Virus record (IMG/VR): IMGVR_UViG_3300036861_000142
Span: 1 to 21,723 of that record
DNA from: a virus
Reading direction: 5' to 3' (one strand)
Length of the DNA stretch: 21,723 bases
Numbering within the stretch: position 1 is the first letter of the stretch; the number at the start of each line of letters is the position of its first letter. Below, piece by piece: positions 4,146 to 17,806 of the stretch. Both the position numbers and the translations under genes were made by a program. The notes beneath the pieces are model-generated. The model made no database searches and was not told the DNA's origin. It worked only from the letters and a program-made list of their open reading frames with translations.

Positions 4146-4478
4146 ATGAAACAAGATCTTCGCGATAAAGGACGCATCGTCTTGGCATACGGCGAAGCCA
4201 CGGGTCATTGTCACGAGGTGGTCATCGCCGAGACCGGTGCGCCGCCTGATCTGGCGCAGGCGCAATTCTTCGAGATGAATGGACAGCGCGAACTGATTGT
4301 GCTCGCGCCGTGCATCCTGCGGCATCATGAGCATGCGCCTATCGCGCTCGATCCATCACGGCAGGAGCAGGTCCGGCAAGGCGATATCTTGCTCATGCCA
4401 CTTGGACCCGGAGCGTGGCGTGTCGTCCAGCAGCAAGAATGGGCCGGGCCGGAGCGGTGGCATGTCGTCAAAGACTGA
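4146..4478 (+). CDS. GHxH/HHEH small protein, conserved partner of the repeat protein
   Basis: ATG 4146 follows AAAAGGAAGG; the longer frame from 4098 lies in the hairpin region and lacks a site. The 110-aa protein has GEATGHCHEV (16-25), RHHEHAPI (59-66) and QGDILLMP...WRVVQQQEW near the C-terminus. I recognise this combination (GEATGHxH...HEEH...Q.E(Y/W)) from small uncharacterised proteins that sit next to DUF6745/repeat proteins in phages and bacteria. The His/Glu-rich motifs could bind metal, but no activity is known. It overlaps the next gene by 17 nt, which indicates co-expression. Confidence 0.7.
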   Translation: MKQDLRDKGRIVLAYGEATGHCHEVVIAETGAPPDLAQAQFFEMNGQRELIVLAPCILRHHEHAPIALDPSRQEQVRQGDILLMPLGPGAWRVVQQQEWAGPERWHVVKD

Positions 4479-5913
4479 GAAGACATACCGGCTCACGCCA
4501 GAGCAGGAAACAGCCCTTGCTGTCTATCGCGCAGCATGGCTGGCACATGGCCTGTCGTGCGCGCCAGCCGATAGGCCGGCCACAGAAGCTGTATTGCACG
4601 CGATGTATGCAGCACTGAATAAGCCGCAGCCGTATGTGTGGTGGTGTGACGGTCCTGCGACTGGCTCACTGGTACGAAATATCCTCTGGACCAGCCTCAG
4701 GGCCAACCTCAGGACCAACCTCAGGGCCAACCTCAGGGCCAACCTCAGGGACAACCTCTGGGCCAACCTTGGGGCCAACCTCAGGGGCAACCTTGGGGCC
4801 AGCCTCAGGGCCAGCCTCAGGGCCAGCCTTGGGGGCAACCTTGGGGCCAACCTCAGGGACAACCTTGGGGCCAACCTCAGGGACAACCTTGGGGCCAACC
4901 CCAGGGACAACCTCTGGGACAGCCTTGGGGCCAGCCTCGGGGACAACCTCTGGGCCAACCTTGGGGCCAACCTCAGGGCCAACCTCAGGGCCAACCTTGG
5001 GGACAACCTTGGGGACAACCTCAGGGCCAGCCTCAGGGACAACCTCAGGGCCAACCTTGGGGGCAACCTTGGGGCCAACCTCAGGGACAACCTTGGGGCC
5101 AACCTCAGGGACAACCTTGGGGCCAACCTCAGGGCCAACCTCAGGGCCAACCTCAGGGACAACCTTGGGGCCAACCTCTGGGACAGCCTTGGGGCCAGCC
5201 TCGGGGACAACCTCGGGGACAACCTGGGGGCCAGCCTTGAGGCGGCCAACCTCAGGGCCAACCTCGGGGATAGCTTGGCATGGTGGTTCTGGGGTCAGCA
5301 TGAGGCCGCTTGGCCAGCGTATTATGCTTGGCCGGATATAGCGCTACGGTCGATCCACACGCCGGAAGAACGAGTCCGATTATCATGGTGGCTCACACTT
5401 GCGCGGTCGTGTGGGTGGTGGCAGCCATATCATGGTGTCGTGTTCGTCTGCGAGCGGCCAGCGCGCCAGGCTGTGGACGCCCAGGGCCGATTACATCACG
5501 AATCATTGCCGGCCTTGGAATGTCGCGACGGCTGGCCTATCTATGCCTGGCATGGGGTGCGCGTGCCGGCTGCAGTGATCGAAGCGCCGCACTTGCTGAC
5601 GCCTGAACAGATCCAGGGCGAAACGAACGCCGAGGTCCGACGCGTCATGATCGAGCGGTTTGGGTGGGAGCGATGGCTGGCCGCAACCGGTGCGCGTCCG
5701 GTACACACCGATCGGTACGGCGACCTCTATCGCACTGATCTCGATGGCGCTCGTGTTGGTATCGTCGTGGTGAACAACAGCACACCAGAAGCAGACGGGA
5801 CGCGGAAGCGGTATGCCCTCATGGTGCCGCCGGAGCATGAGACGGCGCAGGGCGCGATTGCCAGCACGTTTGGTTTGACGGCGAAGCAGTATGCGCCAGC
5901 AATGGAGACATAG
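4462..5913 (+). CDS. tetrapeptide-repeat protein with DUF6745-like C-terminal domain, 483 aa
   Basis: The start is taken as ATG 4462, with GGAGCGG upstream and inside the end of the HHEH gene; the longer frame from 4297 reads through that gene. Residues about 1-76 form a helical N-terminal region (LTPEQETALAVYRAAWLAHG). Residues about 77-273 are 49 four-residue repeats of the form [A/D/G][N/S]-L-[R/G/W]. The C-terminal ~210 residues contain WPAYYAWPDIAL, GVVFVCERP, HHESLPALECRDGWPIYAWHG, ITPEQ-like LTPEQIQGETNAEVRRVMIE and ERFGWERWL. This tail matches what I know as the DUF6745-type domain of unknown function. The repeats are four residues, not five, so the protein is not a standard pentapeptide-repeat protein. 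Confidence 0.75.
   Translation: MSSKTEKTYRLTPEQETALAVYRAAWLAHGLSCAPADRPATEAVLHAMYAALNKPQPYVWWCDGPATGSLVRNILWTSLRANLRTNLRANLRANLRDNLWANLGANLRGNLGASLRASLRASLGGNLGANLRDNLGANLRDNLGANPRDNLWDSLGASLGDNLWANLGANLRANLRANLGDNLGDNLRASLRDNLRANLGGNLGANLRDNLGANLRDNLGANLRANLRANLRDNLGANLWDSLGASLGDNLGDNLGASLEAANLRANLGDSLAWWFWGQHEAAWPAYYAWPDIALRSIHTPEERVRLSWWLTLARSCGWWQPYHGVVFVCERPARQAVDAQGRLHHESLPALECRDGWPIYAWHGVRVPAAVIEAPHLLTPEQIQGETNAEVRRVMIERFGWERWLAATGARPVHTDRYGDLYRTDLDGARVGIVVVNNSTPEADGTRKRYALMVPPEHETAQGAIASTFGLTAKQYAPAMET
4690..5280 (+). repeat. 12-bp coding tandem repeat, 49 units
   Basis: The in-frame unit is approximately G(C/A)C A(A/G)C CT(C/T) (A/G/T)GG. From 4690 to 5280 there are 46 uninterrupted units, then one extra codon (GCG within Glu-Ala-Ala), then three more: 49 x 12 + 3 = 591 nt exactly. 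Higher-order duplication is visible: the block beginning GGGGGCAACC at 4831 recurs at 5059, an offset of 228 nt or 19 units. Because the unit is a multiple of 3, five other reading frames over this stretch are also largely open; they are by-products. Confidence 0.95.
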
Positions 5914-5914
5914 C

Positions 5915-6088
5915 ATGAGACTGCTCTGGCGCAATCTGTTACAGCGGCTGTATGAGTGGCGTACGCAAGAACTCTCGACGTGGGAGGCTACGCGGCGCGT
6001 AGTGGAGTTTGAGACATATCGCGCCAAGCGGTTACGGCGACGGTTTGCGAGACGGCTGGCTGAGCAAGAGCCTCCGGAAGCGGCATGA
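5915..6088 (+). CDS. small basic helical protein, 57 aa
   Basis: ATG 5915 follows the previous stop by one base. The product MRLLWRNLLQRLYEWRTQ... is rich in Arg and predicted helical throughout (YRAKRLRRRFARRL), then ends in an acidic EQEPPEAA tail. A nucleic-acid or membrane-surface binding peptide is possible; no family recognised. It overlaps the next gene as ATGA. Confidence 0.5.
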   Translation: MRLLWRNLLQRLYEWRTQELSTWEATRRVVEFETYRAKRLRRRFARRLAEQEPPEAA

Positions 6089-6282
6089 AGAAGAACACGG
6101 AGACCATCCTGCGGGAGACCTGCCACGCTCTCGTGAGGCAATCAGAGCGATACAAGCAAGATGCGGTCGCGTATCGCTTCTATGTCGGCGAGTCGATTGA
6201 GGCTATTGCCAAGAGGTACGAGCTAAGCTATCGTGATATCGAGCAGGCATTGCGCGATTACATGAACCGGAAGAGGTCGTGA
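6085..6282 (+). CDS. HTH small protein, 65 aa
   Basis: After an N-terminal helix (ETILRETCHALVRQSERY), the segment VGESIEAIAKRYELSYRDIEQALRDYM reads as a helix-turn-helix of the sigma-70 region 4 / DUF433 type, in which 'G.si..IA.rY.ls..di..al' is characteristic. DUF433 proteins often act as antitoxins, but here the neighbour is a resolvase, not an obvious toxin. It is coupled at both ends by 4-nt overlaps. Confidence 0.55.
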   Translation: MKKNTETILRETCHALVRQSERYKQDAVAYRFYVGESIEAIAKRYELSYRDIEQALRDYMNRKRS

Positions 6283-9546: not shown

Positions 9547-9933
9547 ATGCCGATGCCACGCAAGACTCGTCCGACGTGCGCGTGTCATGGTTGCGAGAAT
9601 CGCGTGAAGACGATGCGCAACCGTTATTGCAGTCATGCCTGTCATGCAGCGACGCGGACGGATCTGCATGACATCGGCGTGCGTTGCGCGGCGGAGCGGT
9701 GGGCACCAAGCGGCACCTTGCATCGGCTGTACGTGGCGCGCGTCAGGATGCGGATGGATGCAGTTGTGCCAAAGCAGGCGACATTTACCAGGGATGAAGT
9801 GTTGGCGCTCTATAACAGGGCTCGTCGAGAAGGGTATCAAGGCGGATGGGAAGCGCATCGCGAGCGCGTGAAGAACGAGCAGGTTCACGAACTCTACCTC
9901 AAGGAGAAACGTGCATGGAGGCTGCCGGCATGA
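9547..9933 (+). CDS. zinc-finger protein, first of three apparent paralogues
   Basis: The 128-aa product (or 126 from ATG 9553) has CACHGCENR...NRYCSHAC at residues 11-32, a compact Cys/His zinc-finger. The C-terminal half has VARVRMRMDAVV, then EVLALYNRARREGYQGGWEA. The last motif matches VLRIAARARKVGYHRGY in the gene at 10397. Zn-finger plus helical 'RAR..GY..G' architecture suggests DNA binding, but the family is unnamed to me. Confidence 0.6.
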   Translation: MPMPRKTRPTCACHGCENRVKTMRNRYCSHACHAATRTDLHDIGVRCAAERWAPSGTLHRLYVARVRMRMDAVVPKQATFTRDEVLALYNRARREGYQGGWEAHRERVKNEQVHELYLKEKRAWRLPA

Positions 9934-10400
9934 CCACATGCCTCTGTGGCTGCGGCCAGCCCGCCCGATCGCCCAAAGGGTATGCAAGCCGAGCTTGTGC
10001 CTTCCGGTTTTACAATGCCCAGAAGGCCAGAGAGGCTATCGCCAAGCGCGGGACTGCTCCGATGTGTGCCTATTGCCATGTGTGTCCCGTGAAGTGGTAT
10101 CGCTCGCGCGCGCGGTGGAATACGTACTGTGACCAGTTCTGCTCGGCGTCTGCGATCAGGGGAAACTTGACCGAGGCTCAGCGCGCAGCCAATGCGGCTC
10201 GGCTGAGAGGGTTTACCGCAGCGCGACGAGCTGAGAATCCGCTGGTCCACAGGCTGCTCGCAGAGGCGCTGCAAGGGCGAGAGGGGTTATCGGCGGCTGA
10301 GGCTTTAGAGTTCGGTTTGAAAGTCTATCGCCAAGCCTGGCAACAAGGCCATCACGCCCACGGTAACCAGAAGCGACGCGCAGCGCGGGAGGCGGCATGA
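9930..10400 (+). CDS. zinc-finger protein, second apparent paralogue, 156 aa
   Basis: ATG 9930 is chosen for its ATGA overlap; 9915 is possible. There are two Cys clusters: TCLCGCGQPA...SRACAFRFYN near the N-terminus and MCAYCHVCPVKWY...YCDQFCSASA near residues 45-73. The C-terminus (ALEFGLKVYRQAWQQGHHA) aligns loosely with the GY..G motif of its two neighbours. The second zinc cluster makes it the longest of the three. Confidence 0.55.
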   Translation: MTTCLCGCGQPARSPKGYASRACAFRFYNAQKAREAIAKRGTAPMCAYCHVCPVKWYRSRARWNTYCDQFCSASAIRGNLTEAQRAANAARLRGFTAARRAENPLVHRLLAEALQGREGLSAAEALEFGLKVYRQAWQQGHHAHGNQKRRAAREAA

Positions 10401-10753
10401 TCTGTCCCATCTGCGGCGAACCGTGCGCAGTGAAGCATTATATGAAAGACCGCAGGCGCCTGAAGACCTGTGGCGATCCGGACTGTGTGGCGCAGCTACG
10501 CGGGCGTATCGCCAGAGCCTGGTACGGGACTGAGGCCGGCAAGCAGTGGATGGTGAATCGGTTCACGCGTTATGCATCACGAGTCAACGCAGAAGTGCGG
10601 GCTGTTGTGCAGGAGATTGCCGGCGAGGCGGAGCACATTCCGCGCTGGCAAGTGTTACGGATAGCGGCGAGGGCGCGAAAGGTCGGTTATCATCGGGGCT
10701 ATATCGCGGCGGAGTGCAAGCATACCCGAAGTCGACGGAGGCTTGTCGCATGA
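10397..10753 (+). CDS. zinc-finger protein, third apparent paralogue, 118 aa
   Basis: MICPICGEPC...LKTCGDPDC (Cys 3, 6, 10, 25, 30) forms the N-terminal zinc module. The C-terminal ASRVNAEVRAVVQEI and WQVLRIAARARKVGYHRGYI closely parallel the gene at 9547 in order and spacing. It is linked by ATGA overlaps on both sides, so the three genes are probably translated together. Confidence 0.6.
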   Translation: MICPICGEPCAVKHYMKDRRRLKTCGDPDCVAQLRGRIARAWYGTEAGKQWMVNRFTRYASRVNAEVRAVVQEIAGEAEHIPRWQVLRIAARARKVGYHRGYIAAECKHTRSRRRLVA

Positions 10754-11094
10754 ATCAGGTACGCTATTGGGACCACGAAACCAATGCCTGGGCAGTCGGC
10801 GAGAGCGTATGGGACGGCAAAGCCTTGCCGCTGGACAATAGCGGCTGGCAACAGAAAGAAGTATTACTTGGTCACGGCGACCATGATCAAGGCAAGTACT
10901 TACGAGCCAGCGACCTTCGCGGGAAAGCGAATGCCGATGCGCCACACTGGCGGCGCGGCACACCACGACTGAACAAGCCCATCCCGCCCAGAAAGCGGTA
11001 TTGCGCATGCGGACGAGCGAAGAATCTCAGTCGCCCGAAATGCTGGCACTGTATCAAGCAGAGCCTGCGACAGAGGAGATCAGAGGTGGCCTGA
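10750..11094 (+). CDS. hypothetical protein with C-terminal zinc ribbon, 114 aa
   Basis: The N-terminal 90 residues are polar with several Trp (YWDHETNAWAVG, SGWQQKEVLLG). The C-terminus has RYCACGRAKNLSRPKCWHCIKQSLRQRRSEVA, a Cx1C...CxxC zinc site in a basic tail. It is coupled upstream by ATGA and downstream by TGATG. No family recognised. Confidence 0.5.
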   Translation: MNQVRYWDHETNAWAVGESVWDGKALPLDNSGWQQKEVLLGHGDHDQGKYLRASDLRGKANADAPHWRRGTPRLNKPIPPRKRYCACGRAKNLSRPKCWHCIKQSLRQRRSEVA

Positions 11095-12922: not shown

Positions 12923-13195
12923 ATGAGCGACCCGTTGACAGATATCGAGGTGGCCTTACGGCAATGCGTGGTGGAGTTTCAACGGCTGCGAGGTGGGGCG
13001 ATGACCCCTACTGACATGAAGGCGCTTGAAGCGTTGCGAGACGAGATGCGCGCGATTGGTATGCCGGCTGGTCAGTGCCCGACCCAAGGTCTGTCAGTTC
13101 TCGCATCGAGCATGGCCGCAGCTGAAGCCGAACGATGTTTCAGATGGGCGCAAGGCATCGACGCCATTCTCCAGACCACCAGCGATGCCGTGTAA
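12923..13195 (+). CDS. hypothetical helical protein, 90 aa
   Basis: ATG 12923 lies 10 nt after the palindrome-embedded Shine-Dalgarno. The product is helical (DIEVALRQCVVEFQRLRGG, DMKALEALRDEMRAIG, MAAAEAERCFRWAQGIDAIL) with no recognised domain. It overlaps the sigma-like gene by 11 nt, so both are probably controlled by the leader hairpin. Confidence 0.6.
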   Translation: MSDPLTDIEVALRQCVVEFQRLRGGAMTPTDMKALEALRDEMRAIGMPAGQCPTQGLSVLASSMAAAEAERCFRWAQGIDAILQTTSDAV

Positions 13196-13844
13196 AGCCA
13201 CCATTGGCGACCATCTGATTGAGAAGGGCCGCTCCAGCGCGCATAAGCGAGCGCATCGTTATCTTGCTGGGCTGTGTATTGATTGTCCTCGCCAGCGCCG
13301 TACAGACCCAGACTCGAAGATGTGCATAGAATGCTTGGCTAAACGGTCGGCCAGGCAAAAGGCACGGCACGATCAACGTCGTGACATAGGGCTATGCCGA
13401 CGATGCCAGCGCCCGCGCGAGGCGGAGTCAGTCTATTGTGGGATCTGTCGAGCTAAAGCTAGACAGAGTAACTGGCAAAGCGCGCACCGCCGAGGCGTGC
13501 GAGGCCGTGGGCGTGTTGTGCGTCATGTGGATACCATGGTGTGGAATTTTGCGACGGATGGGCTGATTACCGAACATTTTACGCTCGCGCGCCGTATGGC
13601 GTGGTGGGCGTACCGTCGCTTCCCGGTCCTCGATTCGGTGGACATCAATGATGTCGAGAGCGATGCGATGTTGGGCCTCGTGATGGCCGGGCGTCGATAC
13701 GATCCAGACCGTGGCGAGTTCAAGAAGTTCGCATTGACAGAAATACGCAGCGCGATTTACCTTGGCTATCGAAAGGCCATGCACCGAGACATGAAGGAGT
13801 CGCCCGTGTTTGTTCCGTTGACGGAGTGGGGTGAGGAGGCGTGA
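13185..13844 (+). CDS. zinc-finger / sigma-70 region-2-like fusion, 219 aa
   Basis: The N-terminal 90 residues hold two Cys4 modules: LCIDCPRQR...MCIECL (Cys 31, 34, 47, 50) and LCRRCQRPR...YCGICR (Cys 71, 74, 85, 88). A basic linker follows. Residues about 127-205 (LITEHFTLARRMAWW, DINDVESDAMLGLVMAG, RYDPDRGEFKKFALTEIRSAI) match sigma-70 region 2, where 'DLIQEG..GL..A...FDP.RG..F.TYA...IR.AI' is conserved. There is no region 4. It may recruit host RNA polymerase to phage promoters, with the zinc modules replacing -35 recognition, but this is inference. Confidence 0.65.
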   Translation: MPCKATIGDHLIEKGRSSAHKRAHRYLAGLCIDCPRQRRTDPDSKMCIECLAKRSARQKARHDQRRDIGLCRRCQRPREAESVYCGICRAKARQSNWQSAHRRGVRGRGRVVRHVDTMVWNFATDGLITEHFTLARRMAWWAYRRFPVLDSVDINDVESDAMLGLVMAGRRYDPDRGEFKKFALTEIRSAIYLGYRKAMHRDMKESPVFVPLTEWGEEA

Positions 13845-13890: not shown

Positions 13891-14106
13891 ATGAGCGACC
13901 GGTGCCGGACATGCGGACATTGTTGGTCGCTGCACGATGGTTGTTGCCGGTGGCGCGATGGCGAGGACTTCTGCCTGTGCATCGCGGATGAGCCGTGGTG
14001 TGACGACTGCGATTTACCGCTGTCGGAATGTGCGTGTGACGTCGAGAATCCAGAGAACTGCGATAGCCCATACCATCCCGGTTGCCGTAAATGTGAGGTG
14101 CGATGA
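13891..14106 (+). CDS. very Cys-rich small protein, 71 aa
   Basis: Fourteen of 71 residues are Cys: CRTCGHCW, GCCRW, FCLCIAD, WCDDCD, ECACDV, NCDSPYHPGCRKC. The pairing suggests three or more zinc sites. The protein starts MSDRCRTC in the same leader context as the gene at 12923. Metal storage or a compact multi-zinc binding protein are possible; the high acidic content argues against simple DNA binding. Confidence 0.6.
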   Translation: MSDRCRTCGHCWSLHDGCCRWRDGEDFCLCIADEPWCDDCDLPLSECACDVENPENCDSPYHPGCRKCEVR

Positions 14107-14247: not shown

Positions 14248-15228
14248 GTGCCTGATCGAATCTGGTGGCTGAGTAAATCGAAGCGCCCGATTATCCTCGG
14301 TCCATGGACGAGCGAGATGGGCTTCGAAGTCCTGTACTGGCTGCCGTTTATCCAGCAATTACGGCATAAGTACAACATCCCTCGAGAACGCCTGATTGCG
14401 GTCACGCGAGGCGGAGCCGGCGCCTGGTACGATGTCGCCCACGCTGTGGAGCTTTACGACTATGCCCCGCCCAGCGATCTCAGACTGTCTGCCTTAGCGG
14501 CTCAGCGAGACAAGGCCTCGATCAAGCAGCTTGGCTTGACAAGTTGGGAAAAGAAGATTCTGGCCTTGGTGGCTGAGCGTATTGGGCTCAGGCGCTATCA
14601 TGTGATCCATCCCTCGGCGATGTACCGAGCCCTTGATCCGTGGTGGGGTCCGCAAACCATGGGCATGGGTAAGGCAATGGAACATCTCCGCATTACCGCC
14701 ATGCCTACGCCGCTGGTTCCAGTCGGTCTCGCCTTACCTGAGCAGTTCGTGTGTGTTCGGTGGTATCAGCGCGCCACCTGGCCGCTCAGCGAAGGCTTGC
14801 TGGAATGGACGCAGGCCATGATGCGCTCCATCGCCCAGACCGTTCCTGTGGTTATCTTGCGGTCCAGCCAGTATGCAGATGACCACATTGACTTTCCGGC
14901 ACCCGCCGGCGAGAACATTACCGTAGTACAGGCTGAGCCATGGAGAGAGAACCTCGCGGTACAATCCGCGATTATCAAGAAAGCTGTCGCGTATGTCGGC
15001 ACATGGGGCGGCATGGCGCAGCTTGCGGTGAGGCTCGGCAAGCCGACAGCGGCATTCTTCGACCGGTGGCATAGCTGTTCCTATGCGCATCGAGTGTTAA
15101 CGGAATGGCTGGCTATGCAGCAAGGCGTCCCGTGTTTCGTGGGCCGGCCGCAAGATATTGAGTTCGCGCGGTTTGTGCTGCCTAAAGATATTGCGCTGCC
15201 GGAACCGCCAAGGGGGTCGAGCTCCTGA
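14248..15228 (+). CDS. glycosyltransferase-like (GT-B-type) protein, 326 aa
   Basis: GTG 14248 is the first usable start, with AAAAGGCG upstream. LGPWTSEMGFEVLYWLPF (17-34) resembles the N-terminal motif 'LGPW.gE.GFE.lyW.P' of uncharacterised glycosyltransferase-like proteins in polysaccharide clusters. AYVGTWGGMAQLAVRLGKP (248-266) resembles the C-terminal nucleotide-sugar site of GT-B enzymes such as heptosyltransferases. Phage glycosyltransferases can modify DNA, virion or host surface; nothing here shows the substrate. Confidence 0.55.
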   Translation: MPDRIWWLSKSKRPIILGPWTSEMGFEVLYWLPFIQQLRHKYNIPRERLIAVTRGGAGAWYDVAHAVELYDYAPPSDLRLSALAAQRDKASIKQLGLTSWEKKILALVAERIGLRRYHVIHPSAMYRALDPWWGPQTMGMGKAMEHLRITAMPTPLVPVGLALPEQFVCVRWYQRATWPLSEGLLEWTQAMMRSIAQTVPVVILRSSQYADDHIDFPAPAGENITVVQAEPWRENLAVQSAIIKKAVAYVGTWGGMAQLAVRLGKPTAAFFDRWHSCSYAHRVLTEWLAMQQGVPCFVGRPQDIEFARFVLPKDIALPEPPRGSSS

Positions 15229-15410
15229 TGGTTTGTCCGCGCTGCAAGGACACAGACACAGACGTCCTCGACAGTCGTCCTGTCCGCTGGTGGCGGAGAC
15301 GGAGGCATAGGTGCGCCGGATGCGGGTATAAGTTCTCAACTGCCGAATTAGTCATCACGAAACGGCTCCGTCTAGCCCTGTTCAAGTCGCAACCGCCCGC
15401 CTCGACATGA
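15228..15410 (+). CDS. NrdR-type zinc-ribbon protein, 60 aa
   Basis: MVCPRCKDTDTDVLDSRPV...RRRRHRCAGCGYKFSTAELV closely parallels the N-terminal zinc ribbon of NrdR (CP.C...dT.V.DSR...iRRRR.C..C..RFTT.E), but the ATP-cone domain is absent. It may bind DNA as a small regulator. It starts with a TGATG overlap and ends in an ATGA overlap. Confidence 0.65.
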   Translation: MVCPRCKDTDTDVLDSRPVRWWRRRRHRCAGCGYKFSTAELVITKRLRLALFKSQPPAST

Positions 15411-15733: not shown

Positions 15734-15770
15734 AAACACTACCATTAGTGGTAGTGTTTTCTGTTTTCAC
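15734..15770 (+). terminator. intrinsic terminator between early and late genes
   Basis: An 11-bp perfect stem AAACACTACCA (15734-15744) / TGGTAGTGTTT (15749-15759) has a TTAG tetraloop and is followed by TCTGTTTTC. It lies 15 nt after the stop of the last early/middle gene and is the only hairpin in the window with a U-rich tail. Confidence 0.85.
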
Positions 15771-15779
15771 TCACCAATC

Positions 15780-15788
15780 TGGTATGGT
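15780..15788 (+). promoter_or_regulatory. weak candidate late promoter (extended -10)
   Basis: TGGTATGGT at 15780-15788 fits an extended -10 (TGnTAnnnT) just downstream of the terminator and before the first late gene. No convincing -35 is present at 16-18 nt. A phage-specific sigma might not need one. Confidence 0.25.
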
Positions 15789-15803
15789 CAGGTATCTCTA
15801 CGC

Positions 15804-16013: not shown

Positions 16014-16310
16014 GTGCCATTTCAGAAGGGGCGAAGCGGGAATCCGAGGGGTCGGCCGAAAGGGACGGTAAACAAGGCCACGGCCGAAATGAAGGAGTGG
16101 GCCAAGGAGTTCTTTGCGTCTGAGGCGTGGCGGACGAGTGCTATACGGCGCATGCTCGCCGGCAAAGCCCCGCACCTTGAGAGCCATATTGCGGCCTGCC
16201 TGATGCCGAAAACCGAGACGCTGGACGTGCCCGGACTGAGCGACATGGCAGCTGCGCTTGCCCGCAAGGTTGTGGACGAAATCCATCCAGGGCCAGGGAA
16301 AACAGCGTGA
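16014..16310 (+). CDS. DUF5681-like protein, candidate small terminase subunit
   Basis: GTG 16014 starts MPFQKGRSGNPRGRPKGTVN, the DUF5681 motif ('F..G.SGNP.GRPKG...') seen in phage proteins directly upstream of large terminases. The rest is helical (AEMKEWAKEFFASEAW). Its position, and the GTGA overlap with the large terminase, suggest a DNA-recognition role in packaging. No clear Shine-Dalgarno is seen; (AAC)4 lies at 15997-16008. No HTH is obvious, so small-subunit status is inferred. Confidence 0.65.
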   Translation: MPFQKGRSGNPRGRPKGTVNKATAEMKEWAKEFFASEAWRTSAIRRMLAGKAPHLESHIAACLMPKTETLDVPGLSDMAAALARKVVDEIHPGPGKTA

Positions 16311-17806
16311 TTGCGGCCGCCAGCGAAGACCGGATGGTTTGGAAAGGCCCAGTCGGCGAGTTCCTCGTTGACGACACTGAGCAAATCGACCTCGAGGGTG
16401 CGATCCGGTCCGGTAAGACGACGGCGGCGCTCCGGAAGGTGCTTCGGTCCTGCCTCACGCATCAAGGTATTCACTGGCTGATTTGCCGGTATTCGGATGG
16501 GGACACATCGTCCAAGCTCCGGCCGGTCTTCGAGCACATGTGCTATCAGGCCGGCGTGCCGGTGCAGTGGCGCCATGACCAGCGGCTCTACAAACTGCCG
16601 AACGAGTCATGGGTGTATGCCTTCGGGCTGAAGGCGCAGAGCTTGGCGGAGCGGTACGCGAAGTTCCGCGGTGTGACGCTGGCCTCGATTTACAACGATC
16701 AGACCGAAGAACTGCCGTACGACATCTACCAAGAGCTAATTGGTCGCCTCTCGCAAAAGGGCTATCCACAGCAAATTGTCCTGACCCCGAACCCGATGGA
16801 AGAGGATTCTTGGCTGGCGCGCGAATTCCCTGAGACGAACCATATTAAGCACCGGAAGTACTACCGCGTCAGTATTCACGATAACGCTCATAACCTGGAT
16901 CGCGCGACGGTCGAGCGGCTAGAGCGCGTCTACCCGCCAGGTCATGTAAAACATCGGCCGATGCTGCTCGGTATGCGCGGGATGAACGTGATTGGCCAGC
17001 CGGTTTATGGGGCCCTTGACCCGCACCAGCCCGAGACAGCGGCCTTTCAGCGCGCGCGGCATGAGCGGGCGATTGAACTGCACCCTGATTGGGATTTGAT
17101 CGAGTCGATTGACTTCGGAAAGCACCATCCCTGCGTCGTGTGGGCGCAATACACGCCGTGGGGTGACCTGTGCGTGCTCGGTGGGGTGATGGGGCATCAC
17201 TTGTATCTTGCGGACTTTGCGCCGATTATTCAGCAGTACCGGGCCAAGTGGTTTCCTAGCGCCTTGCGCGTTTTGACCTGTTGCGATCCGGCCGGCAGCC
17301 ACAACAACTCACAGGGCCTGCAGCAGAACGGCGTGTCCGTGCTCGAGGATCACGGCTTTCACCCGACCCATAAAGACGACAGCAACTCCCCGTCAATCCG
17401 GCTCGCCATGATTGAGCGTATTGCTGGCCACATGCGGCGGCGCTCACCGGCAGGCGAATCTTTCGGTGTTGATACCAGTCGATGGGTGCGAATCTCCGCA
17501 ACTGGAGCTGTGGGGCACAGGTTTGTCGCGGATGGGTGCGAGGCTGGCTACGTTTGGGACGAGCACTTAATCAGCGTGGGTAACAAGCCTATGCGCCGGC
17601 CGAAGAAAGACGGCTGGTATGAGCACGGCCAGAACTGCCTAGAATACATCGAGCACAATTTCGGCGGGCCACAGCCGACGATTGAGCAGGCGATCAAGCG
17701 GACCGCGAGCATTCGAGACCGCGAGTTGCGGCACAAGCAGCGGGATTACGACCCGTATGACAGGGCAATGCGCAGGCCGAGCCAGCGGCGCGGGGGTTAC
17801 CAATGA
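16307..17806 (+). CDS. terL: large terminase subunit, 499 aa
   Basis: GTG 16307 overlaps the upstream stop as GTGA. Walker A is GAIRSGKTT (31-39). The Walker B region is VTLASIYNDQTEELP (123-137), with E134/E135 as catalytic carboxylates; the usual D-E pair is replaced by ND-QTEE. LTPNPM (159-164) is the coupling motif. The nuclease domain has SIDFGKHHPCVVW (D269) and TCCDPAGSHNN (D327). The protein cuts concatemers and drives DNA into the prohead. Length and order fit the family. Confidence 0.93.
   Translation: MIAAASEDRMVWKGPVGEFLVDDTEQIDLEGAIRSGKTTAALRKVLRSCLTHQGIHWLICRYSDGDTSSKLRPVFEHMCYQAGVPVQWRHDQRLYKLPNESWVYAFGLKAQSLAERYAKFRGVTLASIYNDQTEELPYDIYQELIGRLSQKGYPQQIVLTPNPMEEDSWLAREFPETNHIKHRKYYRVSIHDNAHNLDRATVERLERVYPPGHVKHRPMLLGMRGMNVIGQPVYGALDPHQPETAAFQRARHERAIELHPDWDLIESIDFGKHHPCVVWAQYTPWGDLCVLGGVMGHHLYLADFAPIIQQYRAKWFPSALRVLTCCDPAGSHNNSQGLQQNGVSVLEDHGFHPTHKDDSNSPSIRLAMIERIAGHMRRRSPAGESFGVDTSRWVRISATGAVGHRFVADGCEAGYVWDEHLISVGNKPMRRPKKDGWYEHGQNCLEYIEHNFGGPQPTIEQAIKRTASIRDRELRHKQRDYDPYDRAMRRPSQRRGGYQ

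Follow-up and report, generated by a model that had tools for sequence, protein, structure and literature searches.

How a phage protein that carries sigma-70 region 2 and ends shortly after it could act in transcription is the question raised by a gene in the window, the 21,723-nucleotide stretch of viral DNA analyzed here (IMG/VR record IMGVR_UViG_3300036861_000142). Read from its ATG, the gene encodes a protein in which two Cys4 modules precede a sigma-70 region 2, the arrangement described in the initial annotation and borne out by the Cys positions and the profile match given below (Table 1). Only one relative was found in IMG/VR (L002/L005, 92% identical), and its contig begins just before the sigma gene. 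The ATG is supported because the homology with L002 starts at the identical codon; in both phages it overlaps the stop of the preceding ORF (12923-13195 in the window), which suggests translational coupling of the two genes.

Table 1. Features of the sigma gene, of a weak partner candidate and of the putative target region, with positions in the window.
Feature	Position	Strand	Evidence or remark
65-aa HTH-like ORF, only (weak) region-4-like partner candidate in the window	6085..6282	+	weak profile matches
Cys4-Cys4-sigma region 2 CDS, 219 aa	13185..13844	+	ORF translation, L002 comparison
Cys4 module 1, C31-x2-C34-x12-C47-x2-C50	13275..13334	+	Cys spacing; all Cys kept in L002
Cys4 module 2, C71-x2-C74-x10-C85-x2-C88	13395..13448	+	Cys spacing; all Cys kept in L002
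Residues 124-201, sigma-70 region 2	13554..13787	+	Pfam, NCBIfam, PHROGs and PDB profile matches; model; selection
Short acidic C-terminal tail, without region 4	13788..13841	+	alignment; dN/dS about 0.5
11-bp hairpin and T-run, candidate terminator	15734..15759	+	two C-A mismatches weaken it in the relative
Conserved noncoding stretch, 34 nt, directly 5' of ATG 15804	15770..15803	+	identical in the relative
Terminase large subunit, downstream packaging operon	16307..17806	+	profile matches

Pfam Sigma70_r2 matches residues 136-198 with E 8.4e-8 and 32.3 bits, about 8 bits above the cut-off of 24, and NCBIfam FliA_WhiG matches residues 127-197 with E 1.6e-7; the latter score lies below the model's own cut-off, as is expected since only one domain is present. 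In the PDB, FliA was the phmmer match (E 0.001-0.002). Structure models were built from two near-identical sequences and reached pLDDT 57-66, that of residues 105-219 having a pLDDT of 65.6 overall and about 70-81 across most of the region 2 domain. Foldseek with this model returned sigma domains with a probability of 1.0 and no E-value below 0.001, and among the VIA matches listed nearly all were sigma domain 2 chains, with rmsd 1.5-3.7 over 65-89 residues and Z about 9-10, a middling value that is frequent among helical domains. The region 2 fold is concluded because the structural matches fall consistently on sigma domain 2 and the sequence profiles are independent of them, in line with the region 2 match of the initial annotation. 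In the alignment, the Asp of region 2.2 and the region 2.3 motif Y-D-P-x-R-G-x-F-x-x-F are kept, the latter with Y172, D173, R176, F179 and F182, which in sigma-70 factors are melting-type residues and which are invariant between the window protein and its relative.

The absence of region 4, also claimed initially, was confirmed, as neither PF04545 (Sigma70_r4) nor PF08281 (Sigma70_r4_2) matches the protein, the window at E<=10 or the relative's record at E<=1. The protein belongs to the sigma-70 family by its Sigma70_r2 match and not by region 4, and it falls short of a complete sigma factor, since both region 4 families are missing from protein and record. The frames downstream of the sigma gene, read by eye for a frameshifted region 4, held nothing region-4-like. 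Only about 18 residues follow the region 2 domain; the protein ends in KESPVFVPLTEWGEEA, at which point relatives run on in the alignment into a linker towards region 4, and its C-terminus, VFVPLTEWGEEA, is hydrophobic and acidic.

Region-2-only phage sigma factors and a split between regions 2 and 4 are already known. T4 gp55 is a very small late-gene factor of the sigma-70 family in which domain 2 is the only recognisable sigma domain (PMC2988020). The window protein resembles it, at the level of domains, in having domain 2 only, whereas no zinc modules are described for gp55 (PMC2988020). In SigO-RsoA of Bacillus subtilis, region 2 likewise lies on a protein without region 4 (PMC8103513); there, unlike in the window, which has no clear partner, a known partner holds region 4, and no zinc modules are described. 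One alternative, which we regard as unlikely, is that the window protein is the region 2 subunit of a split sigma, with a separate HTH protein providing region 4 or a gp33-like coactivator binding the flap, as in the precedents of SigO-RsoA (PMC8103513) and of gp55 with gp33 in T4 (PMC2988020). The HTH-like ORF in Table 1 matches Sigma70_ECF (E 0.033, region 4 part), DUF433 (E 0.0056) and a PHROG annotated as late transcriptional activator (E 0.038), each of these matches being weak or below the cut-off; however, it sits 7 kb off, and PF04545 and PF08281 are unmatched at E<=10 in a window that may be incomplete. Its lack of matches in related records is only weakly informative.

Beyond the two modules, the window protein contains one further cysteine, C3, and Arg/Lys-rich segments flank module 2, with a net charge of +5 before and +8 after it. 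No curated family was matched above its cut-off by the Cys4 modules: the double zinc ribbon PF12773 scored 15.2 bits against a cut-off of 27.3 (E 0.025), reflecting Cys spacing only, and the Cys4 half searched alone gave no meaningful match. Matches to the ribosomal protein eL37 were set aside as probably due to a basic, Cys4-containing composition, and in the full-length structure model the Cys4 part is too uncertain for use. It is plausible that region 4 is replaced by the zinc modules; the more specific proposal, in which the upstream-promoter or flap-anchoring job of region 4 would have passed to a tandem Cys4 module that binds DNA, giving a one-piece region-2-only initiation factor, is offered tentatively, as rather less probable than the overall reading developed below.

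What is new about the protein is that tandem Cys4 modules are joined to a region-2-only sigma: no second example was found in the collections searched with DNA patterns, which allowed for a single codon choice and a restricted range of linkers, or in a limited search of the open-access literature. A DNA pattern combining Cys4 and sigma region 2 gave ten matches in GTDB, of which one was a full-length ordinary sigma factor with its CxxC out of frame and nine had no sigma factor in frame; in IMG/VR it retrieved the relative already described plus a single chance match, and its strict form nothing beyond that relative. Likewise, tblastn against the annotated phage collection found no close relative, the GTDB genome contigs held none, and the plasmid matches were sigma factors aligning to the sigma part only.

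The surroundings of this region 2 subtype were surveyed in IMG/VR with the pattern GL-x-x-A-x3-[YF]DP-x-x-G-x-F-x-x-[FY], applied to DNA, which 47 stretches fit. After the motif, 56 residues remain in the window protein and at least 93 in all other ORFs except L056, L061 and L069, which are stretches in one contig and look like chance frames. CxxC is found in none of the other census ORFs, the window protein being the only one with Cys4 modules and having the shortest C-terminal end. All 25 aligned members match Sigma70_r2, 15/25 match Sigma70_r4 and 10/25 Sigma70_r4_2, where one member may match both. Region 4 that cannot be detected is not unique to the window protein, because the phage sigma factors L051, L055, L075, P-SS2 and S-CRES1 show no Pfam region 4 either, their C-terminal parts being longer. 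The description of an unusual phage transcription factor can be kept as regards a probable phage transcription factor, whereas the protein is less unusual than was implied, given these factors and the T4 gp55 precedent (PMC2988020).

In a tree of 82 columns, the window protein groups with L046, L054, L064 and L075 (PHROG 351/36098) at moderate support (80/69). These proteins share the region 2 subtype, with YDPxRG-x-F and a loop one residue shorter, and their genes lie beside packaging genes, adjoining TerL and, where the opposite flank was read, having a TerS-like gene there; they differ in extending well past region 2, in L046 and L064 as far as a weakly recognisable region-4-like HTH, and in having no Cys4 modules. 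Across the census, TerL was detectable nearby in 13/43 loci, a lower bound obtained with only seven query terminases, and adjacent in most. Viral sigma factors also adjoin TerL in L051, L055, L070, L073, L084 and similar loci, L051 and L055 having region 2 and no Pfam region 4. The group 3 sigma factor of cyanophage P-SS2, where the gene order is TerS-TerL-sigma (PMC2784084), is similar in adjoining the terminase and in showing region 2 with no Pfam region 4; it differs in its longer part after region 2, its lack of Cys4 modules and its separate branch in the tree.

This setting bears on a further alternative, to which we give the same low likelihood as to a split sigma: the protein might be a decoy in host takeover, occupying the beta' clamp and displacing the host sigma, or sequestering an anti-sigma in a PhyR-like manner, with no promoter recognition of its own. 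Core binding resides mainly in region 2 by itself, and PhyR provides a precedent for mimicry of sigma without transcription initiation (PMC8103513); against this, the melting-type residues of region 2.3 are retained without change in both phages, and the position of related genes in packaging modules suits a role in initiation.

The protein is most likely a phage sigma factor acting on host core RNA polymerase, which would probably be redirected to viral genes. We propose that region 2 would dock on the beta' clamp helices of the host core enzyme and would recognise and melt the -10 element, while the basic N-terminal Cys4 modules, which are presumed to bind zinc, would give the contact with DNA or polymerase that otherwise comes from region 4. 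The likeliest target would be the late packaging operon from 15804, upstream of which lies an extended -10 with no -35. Taken as a whole, this reading of a region-2-only sigma, with Cys4 contacts substituting for region 4 and the packaging operon as likeliest target, is in our judgment evenly balanced between right and wrong. If the zinc modules do replace region 4, the protein would be an initiation factor that is small and complete in itself, with promoter recognition rebuilt around region 2 alone, and would offer a simple test of the purposes for which region 4 is required; otherwise it remains an additional, well-constrained region-2-only sigma-like phage protein outside the T4 group.

The packaging operon is probably the target of the sigma factor, judging from the DNA in front of it. 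The initial annotation placed a terminator between early and late genes about 2 kb after the sigma gene, and a hairpin with a T-run indeed lies 1.9 kb 3' of its stop. This supposed early/late terminator folds strongly in the window (-14.7 kcal/mol) but weakly in the relative (-4.8 kcal/mol), and the conserved part is the 34 nt after it. This stretch is identical in the relative although the adjacent upstream gene has been exchanged, an identity that is suggestive beside aligned genes that are about 89% nucleotide-identical. It contains TGGTATGGT at 15780-15788, which resembles an extended -10 and has no good -35. The form TGnTATnnT, a motif chosen after the site had been read, has only two occurrences in the window and none on the minus strand, and other copies of the promoter motif in the scan were little above chance. 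The TG of an extended -10 is usually read by region 3.0. Because this reader is absent from the window protein, a host sigma could equally use the putative promoter. In this part of the genome a module exchange is apparent, as the relative's terminase large subunit (L005 3414-4760) differs from that of the window, as does the gene directly 5' of the conserved 34 nt, although the proteins at the portal position are 96% identical.

Profile matches, structure comparison and the selection seen against the relative together show a genuine sigma domain under constraint. The homology runs from the shared ATG to the shared stop, after which the DNA differs. Residues 124-201 are identical at 78/78 positions despite 23 synonymous differences, and the domain is therefore functional and not a remnant; its dN/dS is about 0.01, where the one non-synonymous change counted is an effect of path averaging between identical residues. 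In the first 100 residues, the Cys4 part, dN/dS is 0.20. Although close relatives whose C terminus is complete extend past the stop of the window protein, decay of a sigma gene after loss of region 4 is a highly improbable reading, as it is contradicted by this substitution pattern and by a stop shared by both phages despite differing downstream DNA.

Sigma70_r2 was found in none of L006, L007, L013 and L014 (records of 35-49 kb), which have the same portal and, except for L007 (portal only), the same terminase type, and which carry other genes at the position of the sigma gene. Since a region 2 protein is missing from these portal and terminase relatives, the sigma gene is not generally required in the lineage; it is not a core regulator, and the best view of it is as an accessory regulator or one acquired recently.

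Several other genes of the window were noted. The ORF directly 3' of the sigma gene (13891-14106) is absent in the relative; together with 9547-11094 it belongs to clustered, small Cys-rich proteins. A 326-aa protein (14248-15228) is 38-49% conserved in related phages, and in L006 and L007 its counterpart lies, by eye, beside sialic-acid synthase-like and CMP-sugar transferase-like genes. It is followed at 15228-15410 by an NrdR-like zinc ribbon that stands alone (PF22811, E 2.7e-11), the rest of NrdR being missing; a similar ORF is present in the relative. Finally, a long ORF at 4297-5913, with overlapping ORFs, contains many degenerate 'NLRANLGDNL' repeats of pentapeptide-like character.
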